From Arthrobacter terrae (lineage in GTDB: Bacteria > Actinomycetota > Actinomycetes > Actinomycetales > Micrococcaceae), in contig NZ_JADNYM010000009.1 in NCBI RefSeq assembly GCF_015708085.1, forward strand, positions 62,001 to 126,000: a stretch of 64,000 nucleotides of DNA, written 5' to 3'. Shown in pieces: positions 7,347-62,289 of the stretch. The notes beneath the pieces were generated by a model that ran no database searches, was not told the origin of the DNA, and saw only the letters and a program-made list of their open reading frames with translations. Each line of letters opens with the position of its first letter. The stretch's first letter is position 1. The translations under genes and the position numbers were made by a program.

Positions 7347-7441
7347 GCAGGGAGCCTGCGGCGTCGGTTTAGATTGACAGCGCCTGTGGTGGGGTGCGAT
7401 GGTCGGCGCAGAGGTCATTCGCGGATCCAAGGGAGCAAACC

Positions 7442-45337: not shown

Positions 45338-47377
45338 ATGCGGTCCGGTTTCAGTTTCTTTACACGCCTTCTTGCCGCCGCGGGACTGGCCGCACTTCTG
45401 TTGGGCGCACTGCTGCTTGTACCTGGCGCAGCCGCCAACGCCGAGCCTCCGGTCTCAATTCCGGCCGGTCAGCATGTGGTGGACAATGCCGGCGTGCTCG
45501 GCAGCCGGGCCGGCGATGTCAACGACGCCATCACCAAACTGGCCAAGGATCACGGCTATACCCTATTCGTCGTCTATGTGAAGTCCTTCGATTCCATGGA
45601 CCCGCAGTCATGGGCCCAACAAGTGGTCGACAGTAAGAACATGGGCAGCCATGATGCCCTGCTCGCCGTCGCCACACAGGACAGTCAGTTCGCCTTCCTC
45701 GGCGGCAAAAACACCGCACTGTCCGCCAAACAGGGTGAAAGCATCATCGGCAAGGCGATCAAGCCTCAGCTCAGTGCCCACAACTGGGCACAGGCCGCTA
45801 TTAACGCCGCGGCCGCGCTGGGCGACGCGGCCAGCGGCGGCAGCGGGACCGTCCCTGACCCCACCGGTGGCTACGTCGCCCTCGGAATTGGCGGCGTCGT
45901 CGTCCTTGGCGGTGCCGGTACCGCGCTCGCCATCCGCAGTAAACGCCGGAAGGCGGCCCAAGTGGCTACTGAATCTGGTTACGGGCCCGAGGGCGAAAAA
46001 CTGGATCCGATGGCGGGAACCAGCATTCCGGAGCTGCGCCAAAGCGCCGGGTCCTTGCTTATCGCAGCCGACGACGCGATAAAGTCCAGCGAACAAGAGA
46101 TCGGTTTCGCCCAGGCGGCCTACGGGGATGACGCAGTCAAGCCATTCCAGCAGGCCCTACTGGAGGCGAAAGGGCATCTGCAGGAGTCATTTAAACTGCA
46201 GCAGCAGCTTGACGACGCCATTGTGGACACAATCGAGGAGCAGCGCGCCTGGTACGGAGACATCATCAGGCGTTGTGAAGCCGTCAACGCGTCCCTGGAA
46301 GCGCAGAAAGCTGAATTTGATTCGCTGCGCGAACTGGAAAAGAACGCTCCGCAGGCCCTGGCCGATGTTGCGGAAGGCCGTGAAAAAGCCGAATCGTCTA
46401 TTGCCCAGGCGAGGACTGCTTTGACCGAGATGCAGCACCGGTACGCGGAATCGGCGCTGAGCACCATCGCGGATAATGTCGAACAAGCTCAAGATCGCCT
46501 CGAATTTGTCCAGACCGCTTCGCAGACCGCACAGGAGAAGATTGCTTCCTCGGATGTCAGCGGTGCCGCCGTCGCGGTTCGGGCCGCCGAGGAAAGCCTA
46601 CATCAGGCCAAACTCCTGCTCGACGCTGTGGGGAAGGTCGCCGCGGATCTAGACCAGGCCATGGCTGCACTTCAGGAGTCCGTCGCCGACACTGCCTCCG
46701 ACCTCACACAGGCAAAGGCTCTGGTCTCCGGCCGCACGGACGCACAGTTCTCCGCTCAGCTCGCGGCCGCGGAGGCCGCGCTGGACCAGGCACGTAAGCA
46801 GCTCACCACCGGATTGCCGGATCCGATTAACGTGCTTGCCCGCTTGGAGAAGGCCCATGCTGATCTGGACGTGATGCTCACTGGAATCCGGGACCAGCAG
46901 CAACAGAGGACCCGGGCCTTGGCATCGCTGGCGCAGAACATCCGGGCGGCGCAGGCGCAGATCTCCTCCGCGCAGGACTACATCGCTGCCCGCCGCGGCG
47001 GGGTTCGGTCCGAGGCAAGGACCCGCATTGCCGAAGCTCAACGCAACCTTGACTACGCGCTGTCAATTCAGCGTACCGATCCCGTGTCGGCCCTGACATA
47101 TGCTCAACAGGCCGGCGCGCTCGCCCAACAGGCCGTCACACTGGCCCAATCGGATGTCTCCGGTTTTGGCGGCGGTGGTTACGGCGGTTACGGCTCAGGC
47201 CGCGGCATGGGCGGCGGGTTTGGCGGCGCCATCCTTGGCGGGATCCTGGGCGGCATGCTCTCCGGTGGAGGACGCGGCGGCGGAAGCTGGGGCGGCGGCG
47301 GTTTTGGCGGTTTTGGCGGTGGTGGTGGCGGCTTCGGCGGCGGCGGCGGCTTTGGCGGTGGCGGCGGTAATTTCTAG
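45338..47377 (+). CDS. TPM-domain protein with long coiled coil and Gly-rich tail
   Basis: A 679-residue exported/membrane protein. The signal segment (~residues 10-35, ending AAANAEPP) is followed by a TPM domain (~45-165: HVVDNAGVLGSRAGDVNDAI). A TM segment comes next (GIGGVVVLGGAGTALAI), then a basic stop-transfer region. A ~380-residue Ala/Glu/Gln-rich coiled coil follows, and the Gly-rich tail (~615-679) has GGFGGGG runs. The TPM family is linked to photosystem repair in plants and has phosphatase-like folds; its role in actinobacteria is unknown. GAAGGG precedes the ATG. The PspA gene lies 106 bases downstream. Confidence 0.85.
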   Translation: MRSGFSFFTRLLAAAGLAALLLGALLLVPGAAANAEPPVSIPAGQHVVDNAGVLGSRAGDVNDAITKLAKDHGYTLFVVYVKSFDSMDPQSWAQQVVDSKNMGSHDALLAVATQDSQFAFLGGKNTALSAKQGESIIGKAIKPQLSAHNWAQAAINAAAALGDAASGGSGTVPDPTGGYVALGIGGVVVLGGAGTALAIRSKRRKAAQVATESGYGPEGEKLDPMAGTSIPELRQSAGSLLIAADDAIKSSEQEIGFAQAAYGDDAVKPFQQALLEAKGHLQESFKLQQQLDDAIVDTIEEQRAWYGDIIRRCEAVNASLEAQKAEFDSLRELEKNAPQALADVAEGREKAESSIAQARTALTEMQHRYAESALSTIADNVEQAQDRLEFVQTASQTAQEKIASSDVSGAAVAVRAAEESLHQAKLLLDAVGKVAADLDQAMAALQESVADTASDLTQAKALVSGRTDAQFSAQLAAAEAALDQARKQLTTGLPDPINVLARLEKAHADLDVMLTGIRDQQQQRTRALASLAQNIRAAQAQISSAQDYIAARRGGVRSEARTRIAEAQRNLDYALSIQRTDPVSALTYAQQAGALAQQAVTLAQSDVSGFGGGGYGGYGSGRGMGGGFGGAILGGILGGMLSGGGRGGGSWGGGGFGGFGGGGGGFGGGGGFGGGGGNF

Positions 47378-47483
47378 CAGGCCCTGCCGGTAGCCAGCCG
47401 CGAGGTTTTTTGACACGCTTGCTTCAGCTCGACACATTCGTTCTTCAGAGGAACTCAACAAGAGCACGACGGAAGGTAAGACG

Positions 47484-48290
47484 ATGGTAAAGCAGTCCAT
47501 TTTCGGCCGCATCTCACAGTTGGCCAAGGCCAATATCAACTCACTGCTGGATCAGGCGGAGGATCCACAGAAGATGTTGGATCAGATGGTCAGGGACTAC
47601 ACCAACAACATCGCGGAGGCCGAGTCCGCCGTGGCGCAGACTATCGGAAATCTGCGCATGCTCCAGGATGACTATCAGCAGGACATAAAGGCCTCGCAGG
47701 ACTGGGGCACTAAAGCCCTCGCGGCCAGCCGCAAAGCGGATGAATACCGCGGCGGCGGAAACGATCCCGACGCGCAGAAGTTCGACAATCTTGCCAAGAT
47801 CGCTCTGCAGCGCCAGATGAGCTCGGAAAACGAAGCCCGGTCCGCCGAGCCCAGCATCTCCTCGCAGTCAGAGGTGGTGGAAAAACTCAAGACCGGCCTG
47901 AACCAGATGAAGTCCAAGCTGGGCGAGCTCTCCGCTAAGCGCAATGAACTGATTGCCCGTTCGAAGACGGTCGAGGCGCAGACCCAGGTCCACGATGCGC
48001 TCAAAAGCATTGACATTATGGATCCGACCAGCGAAGTCAGCCGCTTCGAGGACAAGATCCGCCGCGAAGAGGCGAAAGTCCGGGGCCAGGCCGAGCTGCA
48101 GGCCTCCAGCCTTGACGCCCAGTTCAACAGTCTGGAGGATCTGGGCGAGCAGGCCGAAATTGAAGCCCGCCTCGCCGCGCTGAAGTCCGGTTCGGGCACG
48201 CCGCCGGCCGCCCTCCGGTCAGGTGCAGACTTGACCAAAAATGCCGCAGCTGGGAGCCAGTTGGACGAGGCGGAATTCGAGAACCTCTAG
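47484..48290 (+). CDS. PspA/IM30-family protein
   Basis: A 268-residue, almost entirely helical ESCRT-III-like protein. It begins MVKQSIFGRISQLAKANINS and continues DQAEDPQKMLDQMVRDYTNN, both family hallmarks. PspA proteins bind stressed membranes and preserve the proton motive force. GGAAGG precedes the ATG. Its position after a TPM protein that has its own coiled coil suggests a membrane-protection unit. A long hairpin follows the stop. Confidence 0.94.
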   Translation: MVKQSIFGRISQLAKANINSLLDQAEDPQKMLDQMVRDYTNNIAEAESAVAQTIGNLRMLQDDYQQDIKASQDWGTKALAASRKADEYRGGGNDPDAQKFDNLAKIALQRQMSSENEARSAEPSISSQSEVVEKLKTGLNQMKSKLGELSAKRNELIARSKTVEAQTQVHDALKSIDIMDPTSEVSRFEDKIRREEAKVRGQAELQASSLDAQFNSLEDLGEQAEIEARLAALKSGSGTPPAALRSGADLTKNAAAGSQLDEAEFENL

Positions 48291-48532: not shown

Positions 48533-49720
48533 ATGACTGTATCCCCCCTTATCTGGGGCTTGACCATCGTCCTCATTCTGGGACTTCTGGCCTTCGATTA
48601 TTTCTTTCACATCCGCAAAGCGCATGTACCCAAACTCAAAGAAGCGGCTCTTTGGTCCGGCATCTACGTCGGCTTGGCGCTGTTGTTTGGCGTGGCCCTG
48701 TGGATTTACGGCGGGGCCGAGATGGGTACTGAGTACTTTGCCGGTTACGTCACCGAAAAAGCCCTCTCTGTTGACAACCTCTTCGTTTTCCTGATCCTGA
48801 TAGCGAGCTTCCGCGTTCCGCGTGAAGACCAGCAGAAGGTCCTGCTCTTCGGAATTGTCTTCTCCTTGATCGCCCGGACCGGATTTATCTTCCTCGGTGC
48901 GGCACTGATTAATTCCTTCGCCTGGGTCTTCTACATCTTCGGCCTGATCCTGCTGGTCACCGCCGGCAACCTGCTCAAGCCCGAGAAGGAGGACGAGGGT
49001 ACTGCGGACAATTTCATCATCAAGCTGGCTCGCCGTTTCTTCCACACCTCGGAGAACTACGACGGGGACAAGCTCTTCACGCACGAAAATGGCAAGCGCG
49101 TCCTGACGCCGATGCTGCTGGTGATGGTGGCGATCGGCGGGACGGACCTGCTTTTCGCACTGGATTCCATCCCCGCCATCTTCGGACTGACACAGAACGT
49201 TTACATTGTCTTCACGGCAACGGCCTTCTCATTGATGGGGTTGCGCCAACTGTACTTTTTGATTGATGGACTGCTGGACCGCCTGATTTACCTCTCCTTC
49301 GGCCTGGCCGCCATCCTTGCCTTCATCGGCGTCAAGCTGGTGCTGCACGCGCTGCATGAGAACAACCTTTTCTTTATCAACGGCGGCGACCCTGTGCCGG
49401 TTTTCGAAATCAGCACCGGCCTGTCCCTGGCCGTCATAGTCGGCGTGCTGGCCGTCACGGTGGCTGCCTCGCTGCTGAGCCCGGCGGGCAAAGCTCAGGC
49501 AGCAGTGTCCGGAATCCGGCACCATGCTACGGAGTATCTGGATCTGACGTACACGGCAGATCACTCAGAGCGCGAGCGGGTTTATGCGTTGATGACGGCC
49601 GCTGAGGAAGAAATCCGTAAAATGCCCCTCAAACACCGGGACCAGGCCAAGGATGTGGAGGAGATTCGCGGCCTAGTGAGCCGGGCGCATGACGAGCATG
49701 CAAAGTTCCCTGCCGCCTAA
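48533..49720 (+). CDS. TerC/Alx-family integral membrane transporter
   Basis: A 395-residue membrane protein with about nine TM segments. Conserved acidic TerC motifs are FDYFFHIRKAH near the N-terminus, EKALSVDNLFVFLILI and VAIGGTDLLFALDSIPAIFG. The C-terminal ~70 residues are a soluble charged extension. Bacterial TerC/Alx members export manganese or metallate secreted enzymes. The riboswitch upstream supports a manganese role here. A canonical terminator follows. Confidence 0.93.
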   Translation: MTVSPLIWGLTIVLILGLLAFDYFFHIRKAHVPKLKEAALWSGIYVGLALLFGVALWIYGGAEMGTEYFAGYVTEKALSVDNLFVFLILIASFRVPREDQQKVLLFGIVFSLIARTGFIFLGAALINSFAWVFYIFGLILLVTAGNLLKPEKEDEGTADNFIIKLARRFFHTSENYDGDKLFTHENGKRVLTPMLLVMVAIGGTDLLFALDSIPAIFGLTQNVYIVFTATAFSLMGLRQLYFLIDGLLDRLIYLSFGLAAILAFIGVKLVLHALHENNLFFINGGDPVPVFEISTGLSLAVIVGVLAVTVAASLLSPAGKAQAAVSGIRHHATEYLDLTYTADHSERERVYALMTAAEEEIRKMPLKHRDQAKDVEEIRGLVSRAHDEHAKFPAA

Positions 49721-49735
49721 CTCCACGGCCGCCGG

Positions 49736-49780
49736 AAGGCTGGTCCGGGCCCTGCCGCACAGGGTCCGGACCAGCCTTTT
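49736..49780 (+). terminator. Rho-independent terminator after the TerC gene
   Basis: AAGGCTGGTCCGG (49736-49748) pairs with CCGGACCAGCCTT (49766-49778) and is followed by TTTT. It lies between convergent genes and could serve both. Confidence 0.88.
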
Positions 49781-49823
49781 CCGGGCACGAATTGCTGGTG
49801 GCCGGTTACGCGCCCGCGACGGT

Positions 49824-50669
49824 CTACATCTGGGTGAATGCCGCCGTCGCCGGATCGGCGCCAATTCGCTGCCCCGATTCAAGCGAGCCGACGGCGGCGA
49901 GCTCCTCGGCGGAAAGTGCCACGGAAACTGCGGCCAGGTTTTCGCGCATTCGCTTCGAGTCCGCGGACTTCGGAATAACGATGTTTCCCGAGCCCAGGTG
50001 CCACGCCAGCACAATCTGCGCCGGCGTTGCACCGTGTTTGTCTGCCAAGCGGCCTACCGTGTCAGCCGCGAGGTCGCTGCCTTGGCCCAGCGGGCTGTAC
50101 GCCTCGACCGTAATGCCGTGGGACCTGCTCTTCGCTGCTACCTCAGCCTGCTGGAACGTGGGGTGCAGCTCAATCTGATTGACCGCCGGCGTCGTATTCC
50201 CGGCGGCCAGCAGCTTATCCAAGTCTCCGGCCAGAAAATTAGAGACTCCGATAGCGCGGATCTCGCCCTTGGCATAGAGCTTCTCCATGGCGGTCCAGGC
50301 CTCAACGAATTGGTTCTGGGACGGGACCGGCCAATGGATCAGGTAGAGATCCACAAAATCCAGACCCAGCGCCTTCCGGCTGTTCTCGAACGCGGCCGCG
50401 GCATTCCCCTGTTCTCCATTCCGCAGCTTGGTGGTAATGAAAAGCTCTTCACGCGGGATTCCGGACGCGGCAATTGCTGCGCCCACGCCCGCCTCGTTCC
50501 CGTACGCGGCGGCCGTGTCGATGTGGCGGTATCCGGCTTCCAGCGCGTCCTCGACAATTTTTCGGGTGTCCTCCGGCGGGACCTGGAAAACTCCGAACCC
50601 CAGTTGCGGAATGGTCACGCCGTTATTGAGGGTCAGCTCGGGGACGTTTGCATTTGGCTCATTAGACAT
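49824..50669 (-). CDS. Aldo/keto reductase (2,5-diketogluconate reductase type)
   Basis: A 281-residue AKR. It begins with LTLNNGVTIPQLGFGVFQVP; GYRHIDTAAAYGNEAGVGAA holds the catalytic Asp and Tyr. The catalytic Lys (FITTKLRN) and His (LYLIHWPVP) are intact, as is the NADPH site VIPKSADSKRMRENL. The start at 50669 follows GGAGAGG. The substrate is unknown. It is divergent from a second, distantly related AKR. Confidence 0.93.
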   Translation of the reverse strand: MSNEPNANVPELTLNNGVTIPQLGFGVFQVPPEDTRKIVEDALEAGYRHIDTAAAYGNEAGVGAAIAASGIPREELFITTKLRNGEQGNAAAAFENSRKALGLDFVDLYLIHWPVPSQNQFVEAWTAMEKLYAKGEIRAIGVSNFLAGDLDKLLAAGNTTPAVNQIELHPTFQQAEVAAKSRSHGITVEAYSPLGQGSDLAADTVGRLADKHGATPAQIVLAWHLGSGNIVIPKSADSKRMRENLAAVSVALSAEELAAVGSLESGQRIGADPATAAFTQM

Positions 50670-50756
50670 AGGTTGCCTCTCCAGACTCGTGTCCCGGCAG
50701 CGGTATGTTCCGCCGTCCTCTTCCCAGCCTAGACTCGTTGGGAGCAGACTGGAGCC

Positions 50757-51728
50757 ATGAAATTTACTCAGTTGGGCCGAACGGGTCTGAAAGTTTCCCG
50801 CCTCTGCCTTGGCACCATGAACTTCGGGCCGCATACGGAAGAAGCCGCCGCGCATGCCATTATGAATTCCGCCCAAGCTTGTGGGATCAACTATTTTGAT
50901 ACGGCCAATGTGTACGGCGGCGGGCAGCACCGCGGCTGGACGGAAGAAATTCTTGGCCGCTGGTTCTCCCAAGGCGGCGAGCGCCGCGAACACACGGTGT
51001 TGTGCACCAAGCTTTACGGCACCATGACTAATTTCCCCAATGAGTCCAAATTGTCAGCGTTGAACATTCGTCGCGCCCTGGATGCCAGCCTGAAACGTCT
51101 GCAGACGGATTACATCGACGTCTATCAGTTCCACCACGTGGATCGGAACACGCCCTGGGAGGAGATCTGGCAGGCCATTGACGTCGCCGTCCAGCAAGGG
51201 AAGATCCTGTATTCGGGCAGCAGTAACTTTGCCGGCTGGCACATTGCACAGGCTCAGGAGGCCGCTGCCCGGAGACACTCCAACGGGCTGGTCAGCGAGC
51301 AGTCCATCTATAACCTCCTCACCCGGGACGTGGAGCTTGAGGTCATACCGGCCGCGCAACACTACGGCCTGGGGCTTATTCCATGGTCCCCGCTGCACGG
51401 CGGCCTGCTGGGGGGTGTGCTGAAAAAGGAGCGCGACGGCGTCAGGCGCACCGAGGGGCGCGCGAAGGAAACCCTAAAAAAACATCAAGACCAGATCCGG
51501 CAATACGAGGATTTCTGTGCTGAGCTCGGTGTGGAGCCCGGCAACGTTGCGCTGGCGTGGCTGCTGCATCAACCCGTTGTCACGGCGCCGATCGTGGGAC
51601 CGCGCACCCAGGAGCAATTGGACTCTGCCGTCCAGGCGCTGGATGTCACCCTGGACGACGCCGCACTGAACCGACTGGATGCTATCTTCCCCGGCCACCG
51701 GACCGCCCCGGAAGATTACGCCTGGTGA
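50757..51728 (+). CDS. Aldo/keto reductase (Kv-beta/Tas-like)
   Basis: A 323-residue AKR starting MKFTQLGRTGLKVSRLCLGT after GGAG. The catalytic Asp/Tyr lie in INYFDTANVYGGGQHRGWTE, Lys in TVLCTKLYG and His in VYQFHHVDRN. The NADP site is PIVGPRTQEQLDSAV. Its stop overlaps the GTG start of the SDR gene by four bases, so the two enzymes are co-produced. Confidence 0.92.
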   Translation: MKFTQLGRTGLKVSRLCLGTMNFGPHTEEAAAHAIMNSAQACGINYFDTANVYGGGQHRGWTEEILGRWFSQGGERREHTVLCTKLYGTMTNFPNESKLSALNIRRALDASLKRLQTDYIDVYQFHHVDRNTPWEEIWQAIDVAVQQGKILYSGSSNFAGWHIAQAQEAAARRHSNGLVSEQSIYNLLTRDVELEVIPAAQHYGLGLIPWSPLHGGLLGGVLKKERDGVRRTEGRAKETLKKHQDQIRQYEDFCAELGVEPGNVALAWLLHQPVVTAPIVGPRTQEQLDSAVQALDVTLDDAALNRLDAIFPGHRTAPEDYAW

Positions 51729-52747
51729 ACGGCTCCGGCTTACGTCTGTTATTCCTCGGCGGTACCGGTGTGATCAGCGCAGCGGCTGTGGAACGCGCCG
51801 CCGGGTTGGGCCACCGCGTCACGGTGCTCAACCGCGGTGCCTCTTACCTGCGTCCGGTTCCCGACGGGGTCGAAGTATTACACGCGGATGTCCGCGACGA
51901 AGCCGCGCTCGGGGCGACCCTGGGCAATCGGGAATTTGACGCCGTCGCCGATTTTCTCTCCTTTACTCCCGAGCATGCCGCTGCGGCGGTTTCGCGCTTT
52001 GCGGGACGGACCGGCCAATACGTCTTCATTAGCTCCGCCTCCGCCTATCAAAAACCGCCGGCGCGGCTTCCTATTTTGGAATCCACGCCACTGCGGAACC
52101 CGTTTTGGCGGTACTCCCGGGACAAGATTGGCTGCGAAGATCTGCTCGTAGATGCGTACCGGACGGACGGCTTCCCGGTGACAATCGTGCGCCCCTCGCA
52201 TACATATGACCGCACCTCCATGCCCTTACTGGGTGGCTGGACGGACATTCACCGGCTCCGGTCCGGGCTGCCGGTACTGGTGCATGGCGACGGCACCTCG
52301 CTGTGGACGCTGACACACAGCAGCGACTTCGCCTTCGCCTTCACCGGTCTATTGGGCCGCCCGCAGTCCGTGGGTGAAAGCTACACCATCACCTCGGACG
52401 AATTCCTGCCCTGGGATCAGGTTTACCGCCTGCTCGCCGCGGCAGCGGGCGTCCCGGAGCCGGAACTGGTGCATGTGTCCTCGGCGACAATCGCGGCGTA
52501 CGCACCGTCGCTGGGTCCTGGATTGCTGGGCGACAAGGCGCACTCGGTGATTTTCTCCAATGCCAAAATCAAGTCCCTGGTGCCCGGATACCGTGCGGAC
52601 ATCCCGTTCTCCACCGGCGCACGGGAAATCATCGGCTGGCACGACGCGCACCCCGGGACACAGACCGTGGACCCGGACTTCATGGCCGTCTCCGACGAGT
52701 TGGTCGCCTGGGCACGTGGGGCCCCGGGCTCCGCCAGCGGATCGTGA
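51725..52747 (+). CDS. NAD-dependent epimerase/SDR-like protein
   Basis: A 340-residue extended SDR. The Rossmann motif is LLFLGGTGVISAAAVERAAG (residues ~8-27) and the active region reads FISSASAYQKPP ... YSRDKIGCEDLL. The GTG at 51725 overlaps the AKR stop. It resembles isoflavone-reductase/mRNA-binding-like epimerases of actinobacteria; the substrate is unknown. Its last codons and stop lie inside the ABC-F-derived fragment described at 52734-52841, so the C-terminal SASGS residues may be an acquired end. Confidence 0.85.
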   Translation: MNGSGLRLLFLGGTGVISAAAVERAAGLGHRVTVLNRGASYLRPVPDGVEVLHADVRDEAALGATLGNREFDAVADFLSFTPEHAAAAVSRFAGRTGQYVFISSASAYQKPPARLPILESTPLRNPFWRYSRDKIGCEDLLVDAYRTDGFPVTIVRPSHTYDRTSMPLLGGWTDIHRLRSGLPVLVHGDGTSLWTLTHSSDFAFAFTGLLGRPQSVGESYTITSDEFLPWDQVYRLLAAAAGVPEPELVHVSSATIAAYAPSLGPGLLGDKAHSVIFSNAKIKSLVPGYRADIPFSTGAREIIGWHDAHPGTQTVDPDFMAVSDELVAWARGAPGSASGS

Positions 52748-52841
52748 GCTGACCGTCCCTGACGTCCCGGCGGGTATCCAACCGGACCTTCGCCGGCAAG
52801 GTATGGACCTCGGCGCTGCTGCGTTGCGGGGGCAGCCAGGC
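52734..52841 (-). pseudogene. Decayed 3' fragment of an ABC-F gene
   Basis: On the minus strand this stretch reads LPPQRSSAEVHTLPAK then VRLDTRRDVRDGQLTIR. It matches two separated parts of the ABC-F protein encoded at 55022-56659 (LPELNSAEVRTLLAK and VRLDTRWDVKDGQVAIR). The parts between them (76 codons) are missing, and the joint falls in a 12-base repeat TTCGCCAGCAGG that occurs twice in the intact gene. By eye 52734-52800 aligns with 55022-55088 with about nine mismatches in 67. The fragment begins within ~10 bases of the GH3 stop. Confidence 0.8.
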
Positions 52842-52846
52842 CCCGG

Positions 52847-54865
52847 CTACATATAGATGACTGTGGTGGTATTACTGGCACTGTCCCAGACGATGGAGCC
52901 GTGCTGGAAGTCGCTGCGCCGGCCGCCGGTGACATCATATTCGTCGGTAACGGGGTACCCCAGCGCACTGCGCTCCCACCCCAGTGCACCCCACCGCGCT
53001 CTAATCGCCCCGAGCACGTCATGCGCTCCGGTCAAGGGGGTCCAGTAGATGGAAGAACTCCCGTTAAGGCCGCTGAAGTTGTTGTACCGTCCCACGCCGT
53101 CGGGAGAACCGGTCTCGTCGCTCACCGGATATCCCATCAGCCCGCGTTCCCAGCCCAACGCCCCCCAGTGCGCGCGGATCGAGCCCTGTATCGACCAGGC
53201 GCCGGTAGCGGGCGTCCAGTAGATCGAGCCCCCGATACCGCCGTCGAAGTTGTTGTACCGTCCCACACCGTCGGGGGAACCGGTCTCGTCACTCACCGGA
53301 TATCCTATCGGGCCGCGTTCCCAGCCCAGCGCGCCCCAGTGCGCGAGGATCCCGCCGTGCACCGACCACGCGCCGGTGGCGGGCGTCCAGTAAATCGTCC
53401 CGCCCGCGCCGCCGTCGAAGTTGTTGTGGCGGCCCACCCCGTCAGGGGTTCCGGTCTCGTCCGTCACCGGAAAACCGAGGAAACCGGCCGGACCGCCCAG
53501 CGCCCAGTAGTGGGCGCCGATGGCTCCGTGGACCTCGTATGCGCCGGTGCGGGCCGACCATAGGATCGAGCCGCTCTGATAGTCGCGTCCTCGACCGCCC
53601 GCCACCGGATATTCGGCCCCGATCGGCAGGCCGAGCACCGAGGCGGCACCGCCGAGCGCCGCATAGTGCTGCGCTATCGGGCCGGAAGCGTCCGGGCAGG
53701 AGACCAAGCCGGCCTGGTACTTTGTTTCCAGCACAGTCTTCGCGTCGGCCTGCACTTGTGCGGCAAAACCCGGGTCCTGACTGGTCTGCACCAGCACAGC
53801 GTCTACCATCAACCCGATGTCGGCCGACGAGCCGTCCAGCACCACCGTGCCGCCTGCGGCAAGGAACTTTATGGCGCGCTGGGCCGGGGTAAGGTCGCTG
53901 ACGGCGGCGGCGTTCATGCTGTCGGACATGATCACACCGGAGAAACCAAGGTCGCCGCGCAACATCGTCTGCATCACCGTCTCAGAGAACACCGCGCGCA
54001 GACCGTCGATCCGGGTGTAGCGGGCCTCCGAAATCATTACCACCGGCAGTCCCTGCGCTACCGCAGCGGCAAACGGCTGCAGGTAGGGGTCTCCGCGAGT
54101 GGTCACGTCGTCGGCGACCCCGAAGGTGGTGTCGGTGTTGTCGATGACCCGGCCCAGCCCGGGGAAGTGCTTGCCGGTGGTCTGTACCCGGGCATCAGTC
54201 ATGCCGGCCGCGAACGCGGTGCCGTGCGCGGTTACCGCGCCGGGGACATAGCCGTACTCGCGGTCGTAATAACCGATGGGGATATTTCCGGTGCCCAAGC
54301 TGGCCGGTACGGTATCCAGCACCGGCGCGAGGTTGAGGTTTACACCAGCCGAGAGCAGTTGCGCGCCCCAGGTGGCGGCCGCAGAGCGCAGATCCGCCGG
54401 CGCCATGCCGCCCTGCGAGAGCGCGGTCGGTATAGCGGAAACACCAGGACCGTTCAGCACCTGCACGTAGCCGCCCTCCTGGTCCGCCGATACCCACAGC
54501 GCGACGCCGGCGGTGCTGGTAGCCTGCGCCTGCAGGGCGTTGGTTACCTGCCGGGTAGGGTCCACCCCGGCCGCCGTATGGCCCATCAGCACCACGCCGC
54601 CAAGATGCTGCGCGGTGATGGAATCCAGCTGGGCCTGCGTCGGCCCGGTGCTGCTGACCCCCATAACGAACAACTGGCCGACCTGCTGTTCGGGCGTCAT
54701 CTGCGAGAGCACCGCCGAGACGCACATTTGGGCATCCGTGGCAGGCGCTGACACGGCAGGCGCGGTTGCCTGCGCAGGCACAACCACTGCGGCCGTCGTC
54801 AGTGTTGCGGCGGCCATCGCCGCCGTCCAAAACACTACCCATCGGACAAATACGCCAGAGATCAT
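52847..54865 (-). CDS. Secreted GH3 protein with five LGFP repeats
   Basis: A 672-residue exported protein. The start at 54865 is chosen because GGAGGAGG ends nine bases upstream. The signal peptide ends near residue 35. The GH3 domain (~45-380, NagZ-like) shows LGGVVLMGHTA, ALWVSADQEGGYVQ, KHFPGLGRVIDNTD and the nucleophile motif GVIMSDSMNAAAV. The His usual after KHFPGxG...D(S/T)H is not present. Five LGFP repeats follow (e.g. HWGALGWERGPIGYPVSDE), which bind the cell wall. It probably trims or recycles wall polysaccharide. The nearby ABC-F fragment suggests it was inserted here. Confidence 0.9.
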   Translation of the reverse strand: MISGVFVRWVVFWTAAMAAATLTTAAVVVPAQATAPAVSAPATDAQMCVSAVLSQMTPEQQVGQLFVMGVSSTGPTQAQLDSITAQHLGGVVLMGHTAAGVDPTRQVTNALQAQATSTAGVALWVSADQEGGYVQVLNGPGVSAIPTALSQGGMAPADLRSAAATWGAQLLSAGVNLNLAPVLDTVPASLGTGNIPIGYYDREYGYVPGAVTAHGTAFAAGMTDARVQTTGKHFPGLGRVIDNTDTTFGVADDVTTRGDPYLQPFAAAVAQGLPVVMISEARYTRIDGLRAVFSETVMQTMLRGDLGFSGVIMSDSMNAAAVSDLTPAQRAIKFLAAGGTVVLDGSSADIGLMVDAVLVQTSQDPGFAAQVQADAKTVLETKYQAGLVSCPDASGPIAQHYAALGGAASVLGLPIGAEYPVAGGRGRDYQSGSILWSARTGAYEVHGAIGAHYWALGGPAGFLGFPVTDETGTPDGVGRHNNFDGGAGGTIYWTPATGAWSVHGGILAHWGALGWERGPIGYPVSDETGSPDGVGRYNNFDGGIGGSIYWTPATGAWSIQGSIRAHWGALGWERGLMGYPVSDETGSPDGVGRYNNFSGLNGSSSIYWTPLTGAHDVLGAIRARWGALGWERSALGYPVTDEYDVTGGRRSDFQHGSIVWDSASNTTTVIYM

Positions 54866-55021
54866 CACAACCTCCTCCATCTCGCGTACTCACGGTACTG
54901 CTGGACGCGCACCGACCACAATGGCAGTCACAGCTTCAGCCAAACCGTGGCCCTGATCCGGGCCCTCTTCCGCCGTCAAAATCCGGAGATGGCGTGGACG
55001 TTAGCCATGGACCGTTGCCCG

Positions 55022-56659
55022 TCAGCGGATCGCGACCTGACCGTCCTTGACGTCCCAGCGGGTATCCAATCGGACCTTCGCCAGCAGGCGGCGGTCGTGC
55101 GAAACCAGCAGCAGCGCCCCGTCGTAACTTTCCAGCGCCTCCTCGAGCTGCTCAATAGCCGGCAGGTCCAGGTGGTTGGTGGGCTCATCCAGAACAAGTA
55201 GGTTCACGCCCTTGGCCTGCAGGAGAGCCAACGCGGCACGCGTGCGCTCTCCCGGTGAAAGACTGCCGACTGCTGCCCTTGCCTGATCCGCTTTGAGCCC
55301 GAACTTCGCCAGCAGGGTGCGGACCTCGGCGCTGTTGAGTTCCGGAAGCCGGGCTTCGCAGGCAGCCCCCAGTGTGTCCGTCCCCGCCAGTTGCCCGCGG
55401 ACCTGGTCAATCTCGCCGACGGCGACGTTCGCACCCAAGACGGCCGTGCCGCCGTCGGGCGCAATATGTCCGAGCAGGAGCCGCAGCAGCGTCGATTTCC
55501 CGGCTCCGTTGGGACCGGTGATCCCGATCCGCTCCCCCGCGTTCACCTGCAGTGACACCGGGCCTAGAGTGAATGCGCCATGCCGGACCGTGGCCTGGTT
55601 CAGCGTTGCCACCACCGAGCTCGAGCGCGGGGCAGCCCCAATGCTGAACTGAAGCTGCCACTCCTTGCGAGGCTCGGCCACCTCATCCAGGCGCGCAATC
55701 CGGGACTCCATCTGGCGGACCTTTTGCGCCTGCTTTTCCGAAGACTCGGTACTGGCCCGGCGCCTGATTTTGTCATTATCGGGGGCCTTCTTCATCGCAT
55801 TGCGCACACCCTGCGAGCTCCATTCGCGCTGCGTCCGGGCACGAGCCACCAGATCGGACTTCTTGTCCGCAAACTCGTCATAGGCCTCGCGGGCGTGCCT
55901 GCGCGCCGTGGCGCGCTCCTGCAGATAGGCGTCGTAGCCGCCGTCGTAAACAACGACGTGGTTCTGCGCCAGGTCCAGCTCCACAACGGAGGAAATGCAG
56001 CGGGCCAGAAATTCGCGGTCGTGCGAAACCAGGACGACCCCGCCGCGCAGGCCCTGGACAAAGGATTCCAGCCGCTGCAGACCAGCCAGGTCCAGATCAT
56101 TGGTTGGTTCATCCAGGAGTACGATGTCGAAACGGCTCAGCAGCAGCGCTGCCATTGCAGCCCGGGCGGCCTGTCCACCGGAGAGCGACGCCATTGGCGC
56201 CGCCGCCCCGGTGCCAAGCTCCAGTTCGGCCAGCATCGCTGGGATTCTTTCCTCCAGATCAGCCGCCCCGCACGCCAGCCAATGATCCAGCGCGGCGCCA
56301 TAATCGTCGTCGGCCGCCTTGGTCCCGGACGCCAGTGCCTCCGCGGCGGCCTCCATCCGGGCAGTGGCTTCGGCGGCGCCGGTGCGGCGGGCAATGTAGC
56401 CGGCCACCGTCTCACCCGCAAGGCGCTCGTGTTCCTGCGGCAGCCAGCCAATGAAGGCATCCGACGGCGCACGGCTGACCGTCCCTGCCAGCGGTTCCTG
56501 CACGCCGGCGAGCAGGCGCAGCAGTGTCGATTTGCCGGCGCCGTTAGCACCCACGACTCCCACCACATCCCCAGGCGCGACGGTCAGATTGAGATCGGAG
56601 AACAGCGTCCGGTGGGCGTGGCCGCCGGAAAGGTCCTTGGCCACGAGCGTTGCAGTCAT
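55022..56659 (-). CDS. ABC-F family ATPase
   Basis: A 545-residue soluble protein with two ABC domains and no membrane segment. Domain 1 has VVGANGAGKSTLLRLLAG (Walker A), SLSGGQAARAAMAALLLS and LLDEPTNDLDLAGL. The charged inter-domain linker (RREAYDEFADKK-like, residues ~250-320) is the ABC-F hallmark. Domain 2 has ITGPNGAGKSTLLRLLLG, SLSPGERTRAALALL and LVLDEPTNHLDLPAIEQLEE. ABC-F proteins act on ribosomes, and some protect against antibiotics; which role applies here is unknown. TAAGCT lies six bases before the ATG, with no ribosome site. Confidence 0.94.
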   Translation of the reverse strand: MTATLVAKDLSGGHAHRTLFSDLNLTVAPGDVVGVVGANGAGKSTLLRLLAGVQEPLAGTVSRAPSDAFIGWLPQEHERLAGETVAGYIARRTGAAEATARMEAAAEALASGTKAADDDYGAALDHWLACGAADLEERIPAMLAELELGTGAAAPMASLSGGQAARAAMAALLLSRFDIVLLDEPTNDLDLAGLQRLESFVQGLRGGVVLVSHDREFLARCISSVVELDLAQNHVVVYDGGYDAYLQERATARRHAREAYDEFADKKSDLVARARTQREWSSQGVRNAMKKAPDNDKIRRRASTESSEKQAQKVRQMESRIARLDEVAEPRKEWQLQFSIGAAPRSSSVVATLNQATVRHGAFTLGPVSLQVNAGERIGITGPNGAGKSTLLRLLLGHIAPDGGTAVLGANVAVGEIDQVRGQLAGTDTLGAACEARLPELNSAEVRTLLAKFGLKADQARAAVGSLSPGERTRAALALLQAKGVNLLVLDEPTNHLDLPAIEQLEEALESYDGALLLVSHDRRLLAKVRLDTRWDVKDGQVAIR

Positions 56660-56800: not shown

Positions 56801-57778
56801 ATGAAATACGTCAAACTTGGAAATACCGGCACGGAGATCTCTGCTTTGGCTCTGGGATGCATGAGTTACGGGGAGCCGAAGCGCGGCAATCACGGCTGGA
56901 CCCTGACGGAAGACGAATCCCGGCCGTTCTTCCGTCGGGCGATCGAACTCGGTATCAATTTCTTTGACACCGCGAATGTATACTCGGACGGCTCCAGCGA
57001 GGAAATCACCGGACGTGCACTGGCGGATTTTGGCCGCCGCGAAGAACTCGTCATTGCCACCAAGGTCCACGGCAGAATGGGCGAAGGGCCGAACGGGTCC
57101 GGCCTGTCCCGCAAGCACATTCTGTGGCAGATCGATGAGAGCCTGCGCCGGCTCGGAACCGACTACATCGACCTGTACCAAATTCACCGCTGGGACCCGC
57201 TGACCCCGCTGGAGGAGACCCTGGAAGCCCTGGACGACGTCGTCCGCGCCGGCAAGGTCCGCTACCTTGGTGCATCGTCGATGTACGCTTGGCAGTTTTC
57301 CAAGGCACTGCACGCCCAGCGGGCCAATGGCTGGGCCCGTTTCGTCAGCATGCAGGATCACTATAATCTCATCAACCGGGAGGAAGAGCGCGAAATGTAT
57401 CCGCTCTGCCGGGAAGAGAAAATCGGTGTGTTGCCATGGAGCCCGCTGGCCCGCGGCAAGCTGACCCGGGACTGGGACCAAGCGACAACGCGGGCAGACC
57501 TGGACAAGTTCGGTCAGACCCTCTACCGGCAGGCCGAAGACGCTGACCGGAAGATCTCCACGGCCGTGGCTGCTGTGGCCCAGGCCCGCGACGTTCCCCG
57601 CGCGCAGGTGGCGTTGGCCTGGGTTTGCGCCAATCCGTCGGTCAGCGCGCCGATTGTCGGGGCGACAAAGCTGGGCCATCTGGACGACGCGGTCGCTTCC
57701 TTGGACATCAGTCTCACCGCCGAGGAGCTCTCCGCATTGGAAGAGCACTACATTCCACACGCCCTCGCGGGCTTTTAG
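56801..57778 (+). CDS. Aldo/keto reductase (YajO/Kv-beta-like)
   Basis: A 325-residue AKR beginning MKYVKLGNTGTEISALALGC behind AGGAAG. The catalytic Asp and Tyr lie in INFFDTANVYSDGSSEEITG, Lys in LVIATKVHGRM and His in DLYQIHRWDPLTP. The cofactor site is PIVGATKLGHLDDAVA. It is distinct from the AKR at 50757. It is transcribed alone and divergent from the ABC-F gene. The substrate is unknown. Confidence 0.93.
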   Translation: MKYVKLGNTGTEISALALGCMSYGEPKRGNHGWTLTEDESRPFFRRAIELGINFFDTANVYSDGSSEEITGRALADFGRREELVIATKVHGRMGEGPNGSGLSRKHILWQIDESLRRLGTDYIDLYQIHRWDPLTPLEETLEALDDVVRAGKVRYLGASSMYAWQFSKALHAQRANGWARFVSMQDHYNLINREEEREMYPLCREEKIGVLPWSPLARGKLTRDWDQATTRADLDKFGQTLYRQAEDADRKISTAVAAVAQARDVPRAQVALAWVCANPSVSAPIVGATKLGHLDDAVASLDISLTAEELSALEEHYIPHALAGF

Positions 57779-58077: not shown

Positions 58078-58698
58078 ATGTCGCGTCCAGGAAACCGAAC
58101 TGCTGTCGCTGCTTTTGTCGTGGGAGTCGCCTTGAGCGGCTGCACGCCCACACCAGCCCCCACGACCACCCCGGCGCCTTCCGCCACGCCGAGTGCGCCC
58201 GCAACCACCGGCGCGGCGCCTACTCCCACACCTGGCCCCGAGGCCTGGTCGACCGCCGATGCCAGCCTGCCGTCAACCGGTGCTGCTAACACAGGCTCAT
58301 ACCTGACGAACATCAGAGTTGCCGGCCATCCCGAAGGCAACTTCGACCGAATGGCCCTCGACTTCGACGGTCATGGCCCGGAACTGCGGGCTCATTATGT
58401 CCCGGAGGTTTTCCACGATGCCTCCGGTTACAAGGTTGAACTTGACGGGGGAGCTTACCTGCATCTGTCGTTTGGGGCCGCCGCTCATGACGGGGAAGGC
58501 CAGCCGACGATTCCCGACAGGCCAAATCTCCCGGTTTCAACCGGACTTCCAGGCTTACTCTCCTACGCCGAGACCGGTGACTGGGAAGGCGTCTTATCGA
58601 TCTCCTTGGGGCAAGCCACCAAAGCCGGCTTCAAGGTCGGGCAAATAATGCGCTCCGGTGATACTACTACCATTTACGTTGATGTTCGCCGGCCCTAG
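58078..58698 (+). CDS. AMIN-like domain lipoprotein
   Basis: A 206-residue lipoprotein starting at 58078 behind GGGAG. The signal peptide ends in the lipobox VALSGC (Cys near residue 22), followed by a ~35-residue Pro/Thr/Ala linker. The AMIN-like domain (~75-205) contains NFDRMALDFDGHGPELRAHY, LDGGAYLHLSFGAAA and TTIYVDVRRP. Such domains are thought to bind wall glycans; no catalytic residues are seen. A 15-base direct repeat (CGTCCGGATCGGTAC) flanks the gene at 57932-57946 and 58752-58766. The spacer before it (57779-58077) holds nothing else recognised. Confidence 0.85.
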   Translation: MSRPGNRTAVAAFVVGVALSGCTPTPAPTTTPAPSATPSAPATTGAAPTPTPGPEAWSTADASLPSTGAANTGSYLTNIRVAGHPEGNFDRMALDFDGHGPELRAHYVPEVFHDASGYKVELDGGAYLHLSFGAAAHDGEGQPTIPDRPNLPVSTGLPGLLSYAETGDWEGVLSISLGQATKAGFKVGQIMRSGDTTTIYVDVRRP

Positions 58699-58807
58699 CG
58701 AGCTCTGAGGTCGACTACTCCATTCGTGCCGCTCCCATGGGCAGGAATGGTCGTCCGGATCGGTACCCCGGGATCAACGCTGGGTGGCCAAAACGGCTGC
58801 CAAATGC

Positions 58808-58850
58808 AAGAGGTCCTGACCGGCGTTTCCGCTGATCAGGACCTCTTTTT
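58808..58850 (+). terminator. Terminator shared by the AMIN-like gene and the first tRNA
   Basis: AAGAGGTCCTGA (58808-58819) pairs with TCAGGACCTCTT (58836-58847), followed by more T's on the plus strand (58846-58850). The same hairpin lies directly downstream of the minus-strand tRNA. Confidence 0.85.
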
Positions 58851-58926
58851 GGTTGCGGGGACAGGATTTGAACCTGTGACCTCTGGGTTATGAGCCCAGC
58901 GAGCTACCGAACTGCTCCACCCCGCG
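58850..58926 (-). tRNA. Initiator tRNA-fMet (CAT), CCA encoded
   Basis: A 77-base minus-strand cloverleaf. The acceptor 5' CGCGGGG faces 3' CCCCGCA, giving the C1-A72 mismatch of initiators. The anticodon stem-loop CTGGGCTCATAACCCAG has the three G-C pairs typical of initiators. The T arm is ACAGGTTCAAATCCTGT. The 3' CCA is encoded. Confidence 0.96.
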
Positions 58927-59020
58927 TCGCCTGTTCAACTATACCCGCTTTCCGCCGGCCCGCAGACCGCTCCATCAGTCAGGCCGGTTCCGACGCTCAG
59001 AGAATTGGACCTTAAGAAAA

Positions 59021-59056
59021 GGGACCCCGACCGGTGTTTTCACCGGTCGGGGTCCC
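59021..59056 (-). terminator. Terminator after the second initiator tRNA
   Basis: GGGACCCCGACCGGTG (59021-59036) pairs perfectly with CACCGGTCGGGGTCCC (59041-59056) around TTTT. On the minus strand the stem is followed by TTTTCTT. Confidence 0.9.
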
Positions 59057-59063
59057 TTTGTAG

Positions 59064-59137
59064 TTGCGGGGACAGGATTTGAACCTGTGACCTCTGGGTT
59101 ATGAGCCCAGCGAGCTACCGAACTGCTCCACCCCGCG
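59064..59137 (-). tRNA. Initiator tRNA-fMet (CAT), CCA not encoded
   Basis: The 74-base body is identical to the tRNA at 58853-58926, including C1-A72 and the three anticodon-stem G-C pairs. The next bases are CTA rather than CCA, so the end must be added by the CCA enzyme. Confidence 0.96.
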
Positions 59138-59268
59138 TCGCGATATTGACTCTACCTTAGGTCCTGCCGTGCGACCTAATCAGAGACCGCATCAGCGGAC
59201 GTGAGCTGCGTCCTGCAGCCCGACGTCCGGGGCGCATTCCCAGCGGAACCGCCCCGGATCCTATCGGT

Positions 59269-62200
59269 CTACTTCGTCGGCGTCGCTGACGAGGATGGTG
59301 ACGCCGTCGAGGTGCCGGCGGCCGGCGCCCCCGCTCCGGTACCCGTCATCTGCCCCTCCGCTGCCAGAGCGGCAGCAATGGCAGCACTGAGCTTGGTCTG
59401 CGCTGTCCCGTAGGCGCTGAAGTCGCCCTTGGCCAAGGCGGCCTGCCCGTCCTGGATGGCCTGATTCGCATCCTGCAACGCCTGGTTCAGCTGCGCTTGC
59501 GCGGTGGCGTCCGGGGCTGCGTTGGCACCACCGGTGCCGCCTGTCCCGGACGTTCCCGGCGTCGTCGCCCCGCCTGGTTTTTGCGAATCTCCGGCTAGTG
59601 CACCTGAGCTGCCACCAAAGAGCTGGTCAAGGGCCTCATTCAGCGTTGCCGCATAGCCGATCTTATTGCCGAAAGCCACGAGAACGCGCTGCAACGTCGG
59701 ATAGGACGTTTCACCGGTGGATCTAACGTAGACCGGCTGGACGTAGAGCAGCCCACCACCCACCGGGAGGGTAAGCAGGTTGCCATTGAGGACGCTTGAC
59801 TGGCCCTGTTTAAGCAGGTTCAGCTGTGTGGATACGGTGGGGTCGGAGTTGAATGTGTTCTGCACCTGCCCCGGACCGGGCACCTGCGTATCCACTGGAA
59901 GCTCCAGCAGCCTGAGTTTGCCGTAGCCGGGCGCCTTCACGCCCTTCTGGTTTCCCGCGTCGGCGTCGGCTGCCATGAAGCCGTACAGCACGTTCCGTGA
60001 ATCCGTCCCCTTCACCGACTGCGGAATGAACGACGTCGTCAGGGAGAATGCGGTCTTTTCCTGTCCCGGCATCTGCAGGGAGAGGTAGTACGGGGGCTGC
60101 TTGACGTCGGCGGAGGCCGTCGGATCGTTCGGGATGCTCCAGGCCTGAGTGTTTTTGTAGAACTCACCCGGGTCCGTCACGTGATAACGGTTCAGCAGCT
60201 CGCGCTGAACCTTAAAAAGGTCCTCCGGGTAGCGCACGTGACTCATCAGGTCACCGGACATTTCGGAGTACGGCTTGATCGTCGTCGGGAAGGCTTTCTG
60301 CCATGCCTTCAGGATCGGATCCTCAGCATCCCAGGCGTACAACGAAACCGATCCATCATAGGCATCCACGGTTGCTTTGACGGAGTTGCGGATGTAGTTG
60401 ATGGAGCTATTAGGCAGCGCGCCGGTCCCGGTCTTGGAAGTCAGCGAGTCCGTGGTGGCGGATTCGAGCTGCTGCTGCTGCGAATAGGGGTAGGCGGCAC
60501 TGGTTGTGTAGCCGTCCACGATCCACTTAACCCGGCCATCGATGAGCGCCGGATACGGGTTGCCGTCGATGGTCAGGTACGGTGCCACCTTGGCGACCCT
60601 TTCCTCCGGCGAGCGGTCGTAAAGGATCTGCGACTTGTCATTGACGCCGTTGGTCAGCAGTAGATCGGAGGATTGGAACTTAATGGCGTAAGCGAGCCTA
60701 TTGAACCAGTTCCCGACGTTCGGGCCGGCGTTTCCGGAGAAAGTGGTCGACGCTTCACCACTGGTACCCGATCCCTGCGGTCGGTCCAGTTCCACCTGCG
60801 GCGCGCCCTCCGGCGCTCCCACGACGGAGTATTCCGGCGAGAACTGCCCAAAGTAGATGCGCGGCTGGTAGCTCGTGTCAGTGCCCAGCTTGCCGACGGA
60901 CGGCACACCGGACTGAATGAACACAGGTTTTCCATCCGCGGTGACCGTATTTCCATACGCTGCCACAATGCCGTAACCGTGGGTGTAGACCAAGTGGGTG
61001 TTGTACCAGGTCTGCTGATCCGGACTGATCCCGTTGGGGTTCAGCTCGCGGACGGCAATGACCGTATCCTGAACCTTGCCGTCGATGGTGTACCGGTCCA
61101 CATTTAAGGTGCTGGGGAACTTATAGTACGGACGGTACTGTTCCAGCTGTCCAAAGGTAGCGGAGACCAGGTTTGGGTCCAGCAGCCTGATGTTTGCCGC
61201 GGTCGCCGCGTCCTGCCGCAGCGCGCCCGGGGTGGCGTCAGTCGTCGCGTTGTACGGCGTGACCTCAACGTTGTCGAGCCCGTAGGCGGACCTCGTCGAA
61301 TTAATGTTTTTCTCAATGTACGGGCTCTCCAGCGCTGCCTCCGAAGGCTTGACCTGGAATTGCTGCACCGCCCACGGGTAAATACCGCCGGCCAGAATGC
61401 CGGTAATGATCAGCATGGCCGTACCGATGACCGGCAGGCGCCAGCGGCCGATCACGGCTGTGACGATGAACAGCACGGCAACAATTACCGCAGCCAGGGC
61501 AAGAATTGTCTTGGTAGGAATAACGGCGTTGACGTCCGTGTACAGGGCGCCTGAGCGCAGACCGCTGTTGTCCTGCAGCGTCGAGAACCGATCCAGCCAG
61601 AAGTTAATGGCCAGCAGAATCAAAAAGGCCGCGGCCAGCACGGCGAGCTGGATCTGGGCAGCACGGCTGGTGAAAAGGCCGCGTTCCTGCAGCCGGATGG
61701 CGCCGTAGAGGTAGTGCGTCAGGATTCCGGCGATCGCCGAGATGATCACCACGCTGATCAGGAAGCCGACGACAAATCCGAGGAACGGCAGCGTGTTGAT
61801 GAAAAAGCTCAGATCAAGTCCGAACTGGGGATCTTTTTGGCCAAAGGGAACCTGGTAAACGAAAAGCATGACCTTTTGCCATTGCGCTGCGGCCGCAGTA
61901 CCGGCAAACAGGCCGAAGACTGCGGGCACGCCGATCATTACCAGCCGACGGACCGGTTCCAGCTGTGCCTGATAGTGGTTCAGAGTGTCCTGGGTCTGGT
62001 TGTCGGGTGCGTAAACGGGACGTGCCCGGTACGCGACGCGGACCGAGGCGTAGATTCCACCGCCCATGATCAGGAATGCGGCCAGGAAGATCAGTACCCT
62101 AGAGGCGTTCTCACGCCAAAAGACCTCCAAAAACCCCAGCTGTTTGTACCAGAGGACATCCGTGTAGACGTTGACGAAGAAGACGAAGGCAATGACCAAT

Positions 62201-62289
62201 ACGGCCACGGTAATAAGTGTTGGCAACAGCGGCCCTCGCCGGCGTCGGGAGTTAGTGGGTCTGTTGGGACTGGCAGGACGGGAAGTCAC
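59269..62289 (-). CDS. UPF0182-family membrane protein
   Basis: A 1006-residue protein of the actinobacterial UPF0182 (COG1615) family. There are seven TM segments in the N-terminal ~310 residues (first ~20-42). A large extracytoplasmic domain follows, with [19 protein letters not shown] and [20 protein letters not shown]. The C-terminus is Gly/Ala/Gln/Thr-rich and disordered (~890-1006). Its function is unknown; mutants of relatives affect the envelope. The GTG start at 62289 lies behind AGAGGT. The PDZ-Lon gene upstream is its usual neighbour. Confidence 0.93.

Follow-up and report, generated by a model that had tools for sequence, protein, structure and literature searches.

A decayed duplicate of an ABC-F gene end beside a GH3-LGFP gene at a convergent gene junction in Arthrobacter terrae

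The window analysed here is a stretch of 64,000 nucleotides from Arthrobacter terrae (contig NZ_JADNYM010000009.1, positions 62,001 to 126,000), in which a gene for a glycoside hydrolase family 3 (GH3) protein is flanked on both sides by sequence of one ABC-F gene. From left to right, the forward strand carries an intact aldo/keto reductase gene (AKR2, PF00248; 50757-51728) and an SDR/epimerase gene (SDR; 51725-52747; PF01370, 66.9 bits against a cut-off of 20.9), whose stop codon lies inside a remnant of the ABC-F 3' end. The remnant, on the reverse strand, consists of two parts (52731-52798 and 52799-52829) and is followed by a stretch of 17 nt (52830-52846), the GH3-LGFP gene (52847-54880, reverse strand), its upstream region (54881-55021), the intact ABC-F gene (55022-56659, reverse strand) and a further aldo/keto reductase gene, AKR3 (56801-57778, forward strand). 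The locus was compared between the window's own genome (G000), Arthrobacter sp. H14-L1 (G001) and three other genomes of the genus (G002 to G004).

The GH3-LGFP product combines a beta-N-acetylhexosaminidase-like GH3 domain (PF00933, 125.7 bits, cut-off 27), for which a hydrolase role is predicted, with five C-terminal LGFP repeats (PF08310, 286.2 bits over five stretches, cut-off 22). The former aligns with the GH3 beta-N-acetylhexosaminidase of PDB entry 5bu9 over residues 61-387 (E 1.3e-81) and the latter with Protein PS1 (6sx4, E 6.2e-39; 6swz, E 2.5e-39). Unlike in those proteins, the two parts are fused here, and among the matches listed from 99 genomes only the window's genome and H14-L1 (88% identity) have the full-length fusion; the GH3 loci of other genomes from that search (28 of 28) had no LGFP within about 1.5 kb of GH3. 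A literature search for LGFP together with "glycoside hydrolase family 3" found nothing. No donor of the gene was found among the matches listed from the 99 genomes, the plasmid records and the viral contigs. A plasmid origin is not supported, given that the 285 matching plasmid records are all below 60% identity and none covers 80% of the query, nor is a phage origin, as none of seven pattern matches in viral contigs, from a scan that detects close relatives only, is a relative. The gene has a GC content of 0.669 and a GC3 of 0.802, against 0.572-0.666 and 0.735-0.771 in its six neighbours; the excess is slight, and base composition does not clearly mark a foreign origin. A promoter and terminator scan gave no promoters and one terminator-like site within GH3, the same as in shuffles. 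The upstream region, which is joined to ABC-F about 3 nt from its stop, is partly conserved in H14-L1; remnants of SDR, AKR2 or ABC-F were sought there and rejected, as scores stayed within the shuffle range.

The intact ABC-F gene encodes 545 amino acids and is matched at 96% in H14-L1 and 88% in G003; its product narrowly misses the model for ribosomal protection-like ABC-F proteins (NF000355, 379.3 bits against a cut-off of 380). A single close ABC-F gene (78-100% identity) was found in every one of the five genus genomes, that of G002 being broken into two frames; within the window's own genome, identity drops to 38% for the next ABC-F. A separate close paralogue in this genome or in the genus was thus rejected, and the lost ABC-F paralogue put forward in the original prediction finds no positive support. 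To see whether its 3' end is foreign, identity was followed along the intact gene in a sliding comparison; it runs at 0.86-0.94 against H14-L1 and 0.74-0.86 against G003, with no step and hence no sign of foreign sequence at the 3' end.

To the left of GH3, 52731-52798 matches 55019-55086 at 90% over 68 nt and corresponds to about the last 20 ABC-F codons, the stop codon and 3 nt, running on from SDR. The local alignment score of 101 is far above chance, since 500 Markov-shuffled versions of the target gave at most 38. A second piece follows at once (52799-52829, matching 55315-55345); aligned alone, 52796-52829 against 55312-55345 scores 38, which none of 1000 shuffles reaches (best 30). Both pairs were given independently by a direct-repeat search, the second as 52782-52829 and 55298-55345 (48 nt, 81%), and no other direct copies of ABC-F 3' sequence were found within 52600-55400. 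The insert is therefore flanked by direct copies of the target-gene end, one of them intact, and the two-piece, diverged duplicate that had been predicted from the letters alone is confirmed. It had also been held that the fragment ends at the GH3 stop, but the recognisable ABC-F match stops at about 52829 and the GH3 stop codon occupies 52847-52849; the 17 nt in between gave no confident match, and identity with the GH3 block of H14-L1 begins at 52842. Chance similarity, or a repeat unconnected with ABC-F, has a negligible probability, being ruled out by the shuffle scores and by the collinearity of the fragment with the true ABC-F end of relatives.

Between its two pieces the remnant lacks 228 bases, which in the intact gene are bounded by two copies of a 13-mer, CTTCGCCAGCAGG, at 55076-55088 and 55304-55316. 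This refines the earlier description, in which the skip between repeats was correct and its boundary had been read as a 12-mer. Within 55022-55420 no other exact direct repeat with copies at least 20 nt apart reaches 9 nt, and none of 65,890 breakpoint pairs sampled in the ABC-F gene, at distances of 20-400 in steps of 7 that pass over 228 itself, carries a repeat of at least 12 nt. A single copy of CTTCGCCAGCAGG, with two substitutions, remains at the joint (52788-52800). At seven of 96 aligned sites the left copy alone differs, and six of the seven are first or second codon positions (with changes such as W to R and L to P); as the stop codon is also lost (TGA to TGG), the left copy is decaying. 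The numbers of differences over the 96 sites (13 between left and right copies, 16 between the left copy and H14-L1, 13 between the right copy and H14-L1) suggest that the remnant is about as old as the split between the two species.

The relatives without GH3 reveal the site in its empty form. In both G003 and G004, SDR leads straight into ABC-F, with no GH3 between them and no second close ABC-F gene. Within G003 (locus L032), SDR (5336-6364, forward) and ABC-F (6353-7990, reverse) overlap by 12 nt, the SDR stop lying inside the ABC-F 3' end much as it does in the window, and in G004, for which, as for G002, the sequence compared spans part of the region, the two gene ends are 30 nt apart. 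Window positions 49826-52798 align as a single block to 3439-6417 of L032, through SDR and into the ABC-F end, and the remnant extends SDR exactly as the ABC-F gene does in G003 and G004; the fragment therefore occupies the ancestral SDR/ABC-F junction. That it supplies the last SDR codons, as had been noted, is true but inherited, since G003 already has this arrangement in the absence of GH3. What the GH3-less relatives carry of 52734-52841 is the equivalent of 52731-52798, only as the end of their sole close ABC-F gene and with the 228 bases still in place; this accounts for the fragment and is no argument against it. On the right-hand side, G002 places AKR3 (11623-12597, forward) and ABC-F (201-1834, reverse) on the same contig (C50), about 10 kb apart and in the same relative orientation as in the window. 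A 35-aa reading-frame end without Pfam or NCBIfam match lies next to ABC-F in G002; its DNA is 72-79% identical to plasmid records (six rows listed), four of the six annotated as IS30 family transposase, and the other end of this junction (L039 side) is repeated in the genome. In this third relative, too, the SDR/ABC-F junction has very probably taken an insertion, here of an element of IS30 type.

In H14-L1, GH3 is found at the same place and on the same strand, so the insertion is common to the two species. SDR is gone there, AKR2 is reduced to three scraps (L031 6841-7017) that are only 77-81% identical to the window's AKR2, and the entire stretch from these scraps to GH3 is deleted; a full AKR2 adjoins SDR in 11 other-genus loci. 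Synonymous divergence (dS) between the window's genome and H14-L1 is 0.38-0.40 for GH3, 0.41 for ABC-F and 0.41 for AKR3, as expected if GH3 predates the split, the regional median being 0.42. This median was taken over those of 111 aligned ORFs for which the comparison covered more than 100 codons; the ORF set retains antisense frames, whose dS is artificially low, and a few mispaired ORFs (dS 2.3-9.9). On the left flank, dS is raised in TerC (0.75) and AKR1 (0.72-0.74), and the rise ends at or near the remnant joint.

These observations are probably best explained, in our judgement, by insertion of GH3, in an ancestor shared by both species, at the point where SDR and ABC-F converge; the joining would have produced a partial ABC-F duplicate that later shrank. 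The ancestral order would have been AKR1, AKR2 and SDR, then ABC-F, with SDR and ABC-F convergent and their ends a few bases apart, and AKR3 further to the right. When GH3-LGFP inserted at this junction in the ancestor of A. terrae and H14-L1, ABC-F sequence would have come to lie on either side of it: to the right the intact gene, to the left, joined to SDR, a duplicate of no less than 324 bp of the 3' end. This duplicate, functionless and free of selection, would then have decayed: it lost its stop codon, accumulated amino-acid-changing substitutions and underwent the 228-bp deletion between the 13-mer copies, most simply by replication slippage. The sister species would have gone further, deleting SDR together with the remnant and cutting AKR2 to scraps; given that the left copy is absent from H14-L1, its presence in the common ancestor is something that we only infer. 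The joining step may have been a one-sided recombination, homologous plus illegitimate, anchored in ABC-F; alternatively, a molecule with GH3 and the ABC-F end may have entered by a single cross-over. What the data show is the empty site, the insertion common to both species, a duplicate sitting where SDR and ABC-F once met, its deletion between repeats and its decay; that the duplicate dates from the insertion, that the sister species lost it, and how the ends were joined are deduced. Homologues of Ku (NHEJ) and ComEC are encoded in the window's genome. Of the two origins offered in the original prediction, it is thus the duplication at the time of the wall-hydrolase insertion that is supported, by the single close ABC-F gene of the GH3-less G003 and G004 and by the way in which the fragment continues SDR as theirs does. 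Counted against it are the lack of a GH3 donor and the raised dS of TerC and AKR1, which a later import would explain directly.

Such an import, in which a GH3-bearing chromosome later received TerC-AKR1-AKR2-SDR and an ABC-F 3' end from a GH3-less relative by homologous recombination, the tract being ended by an illegitimate join beside GH3 and the fragment being the donor's ABC-F tail, is unlikely, although it accounts for the contrast between the left flank and the values of 0.38-0.41 from GH3 onwards, for the low identity of the AKR2 scraps, and for third-position distances of 0.347 in TerC and 0.359 in AKR1 against 0.215-0.295 in 15 other genes. The extent of the tract is however unsure, because for the two genes lying further to the left (45338-48290) dS is raised (0.55 and 0.62) but third-position distance is not (0.291 and 0.261); genes with similarly high dS also occur at other places on the contig (-19783 to -16148 and 29516-30751 in window coordinates), so that the edge at the joint may be a coincidence, and either of the two lineages could have been the recipient. 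Maximum likelihood placement over the 96 sites also favours left and right copies together over a clade of the right copy and H14-L1 that excludes the left one, albeit by a non-significant difference of 1.5, and none of four tested placements was rejected (p-AU 0.14-0.82). In a more specific and still less probable form, the GH3-bearing ancestor would have lost or damaged AKR2-SDR, a state that H14-L1 would still display, and the window's lineage would have regained both from a GH3-less relative, an illegitimate join beside GH3 leaving the donor's ABC-F tail; the fragment would then fix, to the nucleotide, where a recombination that restored lost genes came to an end.

A whole-gene duplication, with two complete ABC-F genes around GH3 and the left one almost wholly lost, has about the same low probability as the import. 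The left copy before the deletion measured at least 324 bp with no upper limit, and in H14-L1 the 47 nt between an AKR2 scrap and GH3 contain the one possible trace of the copy in that species, a 14-nt exact ABC-F match (window 55593-55606) that would, if real, raise this to at least 585 bp; the match is weak, shuffles reaching it in 0 of 300 cases against the window's ABC-F but in 5 of 300 against that of H14-L1 and in 5 of 60 when the entire window was searched. Two close ABC-F genes occur in none of the five genus genomes, no further direct 3' copy turned up in 52600-55400, and no ABC-F piece in 54881-55021. Integration into gene 3' ends is known to leave cargo flanked by a gene-end duplicate while the gene end is kept intact, and the locus resembles this outcome; a site-specific element that used the ABC-F 3' end as attachment site and left GH3 behind is nevertheless very improbable. 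GH3 fills most of the insert and has no close relative in the viral contigs, and attachment cores are far shorter than the 324 bp or more duplicated here. An integrase or other named gene beside GH3 was rejected, since seven other ORFs of at least 80 aa overlapping 52830-55021 (SDR-side ones left out), all of which overlap GH3 or the ABC-F end, gave no Pfam match at E 0.01.

The remnant is a clear but ordinary genomic scar. Its value lies in being a well-bounded case in which a convergent junction takes up a new gene without disrupting the open frames of its two neighbours, and in which the empty site, the duplicate and the decay of that duplicate can all be read. If the import were true, the locus would record recombination undoing a gene loss; otherwise it represents routine genome plasticity.

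Deletion between short direct repeats is a known route of decay in gene copies, and the loss of 228 bp between 13-mer copies, one of which is left, shows nothing unusual in this respect; 228 is divisible by 3, yet the copy has neither a stop codon nor its 5' part. For the joining step, one close likeness is homology-facilitated illegitimate recombination (HFIR), in which one end of incoming linear DNA is joined by homology and the other illegitimately, as described for experimental transfers in PMC3240628; here only the end state is visible. In our view, HFIR could leave partial target copies next to an insert. Merodiploid formation, or insertion-duplication by a single cross-over, likewise places direct target copies on both sides of a novel joint. 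In the merodiploids of PMC3784515, however, the duplications extend over about 100 to 900 kb, and the case described there is bordered by incomplete IS861 copies, whereas the A. terrae insert measures about 2.2 kb and is flanked by the end of a single gene.

The ABC-F 3' end occurs in two copies, an intact one at 55022 (gene 55022-56659, minus strand) and a diverged one at 52731-52798, which resumes past a gap of 228 bases and continues up to about 52829. The 13-mer CTTCGCCAGCAGG, found at 55076-55088 and 55304-55316 of the intact gene, coincides with this gap and is the sole exact direct repeat of at least 9 nt within 55022-55420; among 65,890 breakpoint pairs sampled in the ABC-F gene, none carried a repeat of at least 12 nt. 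The diverged copy bears a repeat-bounded internal deletion. The original prediction placed the two copies correctly to within a few bases; it slightly overstated the fragment in extending it to the GH3 stop, as 52830-52846 gave no confident match.

The left side of the locus comprises the aldo/keto reductase genes AKR1 (-) and AKR2 (+) and an SDR/epimerase gene (51725-52747, +), and the right side ABC-F (-) followed by the divergent AKR3 (+). Between SDR and ABC-F lies GH3-LGFP (52847-54880, -), on the same strand as ABC-F and downstream of it. Within a genus comparison of five genomes, including the window's own, two relatives (G003 and G004) present an empty site: AKR1, AKR2 and SDR are followed directly by the convergent ABC-F, and GH3 is absent between the latter two. 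G003 aligns to window 49826-52798 as a single continuous block that spans SDR and ends inside the fragment; for ABC-F, the alignment resumes at 55024. Thus, the fragment sits at the ancestral SDR/ABC-F junction, and the reading of SDR into it is inherited, given that the two gene ends overlap by 12 nt in G003 and lie 30 nt apart in G004. The right side is also ancestral, as ABC-F and AKR3 share one contig, about 10 kb apart, in a further relative (G002). SDR matches (E 1e-60) were found in 57 of 295 genomes searched. Of 30 SDR loci examined, 26 came from other genera; a full AKR2 adjoins SDR in 11 of these and ABC-F is in the 1.5-kb flanks of none, so this neighbourhood has been seen in Arthrobacter only.

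GH3-LGFP encodes a GH3 N-terminal domain and five LGFP repeats (Pfam), its closest solved sequences being 5bu9, a beta-N-acetylhexosaminidase, and the LGFP region of PS1. LGFP repeats at 53055-53567 retain 86% and 64% DNA identity to the first repeat, with a 171-nt period, a pattern that reads as internal repeat expansion. Some match occurs in 74 of 99 genomes, and full-length matches, among those listed, only in the window's genome and its sister species Arthrobacter sp. H14-L1 (G001). At all 28 other-genome GH3 loci examined from this search, the flanks of about 1.5 kb contained no LGFP stretch. A scan of genome contigs yielded six loci, full length in H14-L1 only.

The insertion is shared with H14-L1, where GH3 (88% identity) occupies the same place, ABC-F and AKR3 are 96% and 94% identical to those of the window, and AKR1 and TerC are also present. 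Its genome holds no SDR orthologue (best match 32%), and internal deletions have reduced AKR2 to three scraps (locus L031, 6841-7017), with AKR1 intact. No window-like ABC-F fragment is left there. The 47 nt between the AKR2 scrap and GH3 contain a 14-nt exact ABC-F match in the right orientation, a length reached by 0/300, 5/300 and 5/60 shuffles in three comparisons; as a trace of the left copy it is suggestive only. Elsewhere in L031, overlapping matches of about 454-836 to window 58803-59156 suggest a local repeat in H14-L1 between a lipoprotein-like gene and the large gene after it (window 59269-62289). A search of window 58500-59300 for tandem arrays gave none.

Over 96 aligned sites, the left and right copies differ at 13, left and G001 at 16, and right and G001 at 13, which dates the left copy to roughly the time when the two species separated. 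By likelihood, the fragment groups with the intact ABC-F of the window, with none of four trees being rejected. Of seven changes unique to the fragment, six affect first or second codon positions, and its copy of the stop codon has become TGG, so that the fragment shows no sign of constraint.

The main rival explanation is that the fragment represents the trailing end of an imported flank. Between the window's genome and G001, dS has a regional median of 0.42 and is 0.38-0.41 for GH3, ABC-F and AKR3, versus 0.75 for TerC and 0.72-0.74 for AKR1, just left of the insert; third-position distances are likewise raised (0.347 and 0.359 versus 0.215-0.295 in 15 other genes compared). On both measures, the TerC-AKR1 flank was probably imported by recombination from another relative into one of the two lineages. 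The raised divergence covers 48533-50993 (against G001 contig C11, loci L137 and L138), possibly from 45338, although for the next two genes leftward (dS 0.55 and 0.62) the third-position distances do not agree. The tract stops at or near the GH3 joint. This coincidence may be accidental, since similarly high dS recurs on the contig, with 0.79 at 29516-30751 and 0.75-1.04 at -19783 to -16148, outside the window on its left; if it is not, the fragment may be what the import left at its end.

The same junction was very probably struck in G002 too, where SDR and ABC-F each lie at the end of a separate contig. The end sequences beside them (1-150 of loci L039 and L034, the latter on the ABC-F side) have 10 and 11 copies in the genome, all 12 copies examined lie at most 5 bases from a contig end, and the one next to ABC-F gives a match to IS30 transposase DNA, pointing to an IS30-type element. 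Counting GH3, the junction has then very probably taken at least two insertions within Arthrobacter. The ABC-F gene of G002 (L034, 177-1834) lies in two frames, broken at about codon 214, through a frameshift or a sequencing error.

For duplication accompanying GH3 insertion, a step we infer, a homology anchor in ABC-F may have been combined with an illegitimate join on the opposite side, or a single cross-over may have been made by a molecule carrying GH3 and an ABC-F end; either would yield SDR - partial ABC-F - GH3 - ABC-F. The window's genome encodes Ku and ComEC homologues, whose presence makes end-joining and DNA uptake possible without demonstrating either. PMC3784515 describes merodiploid formation, and PMC3240628 homology-facilitated illegitimate recombination. 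The ABC-F fragment is a real and well-explained genomic scar, an instance of an already known type.
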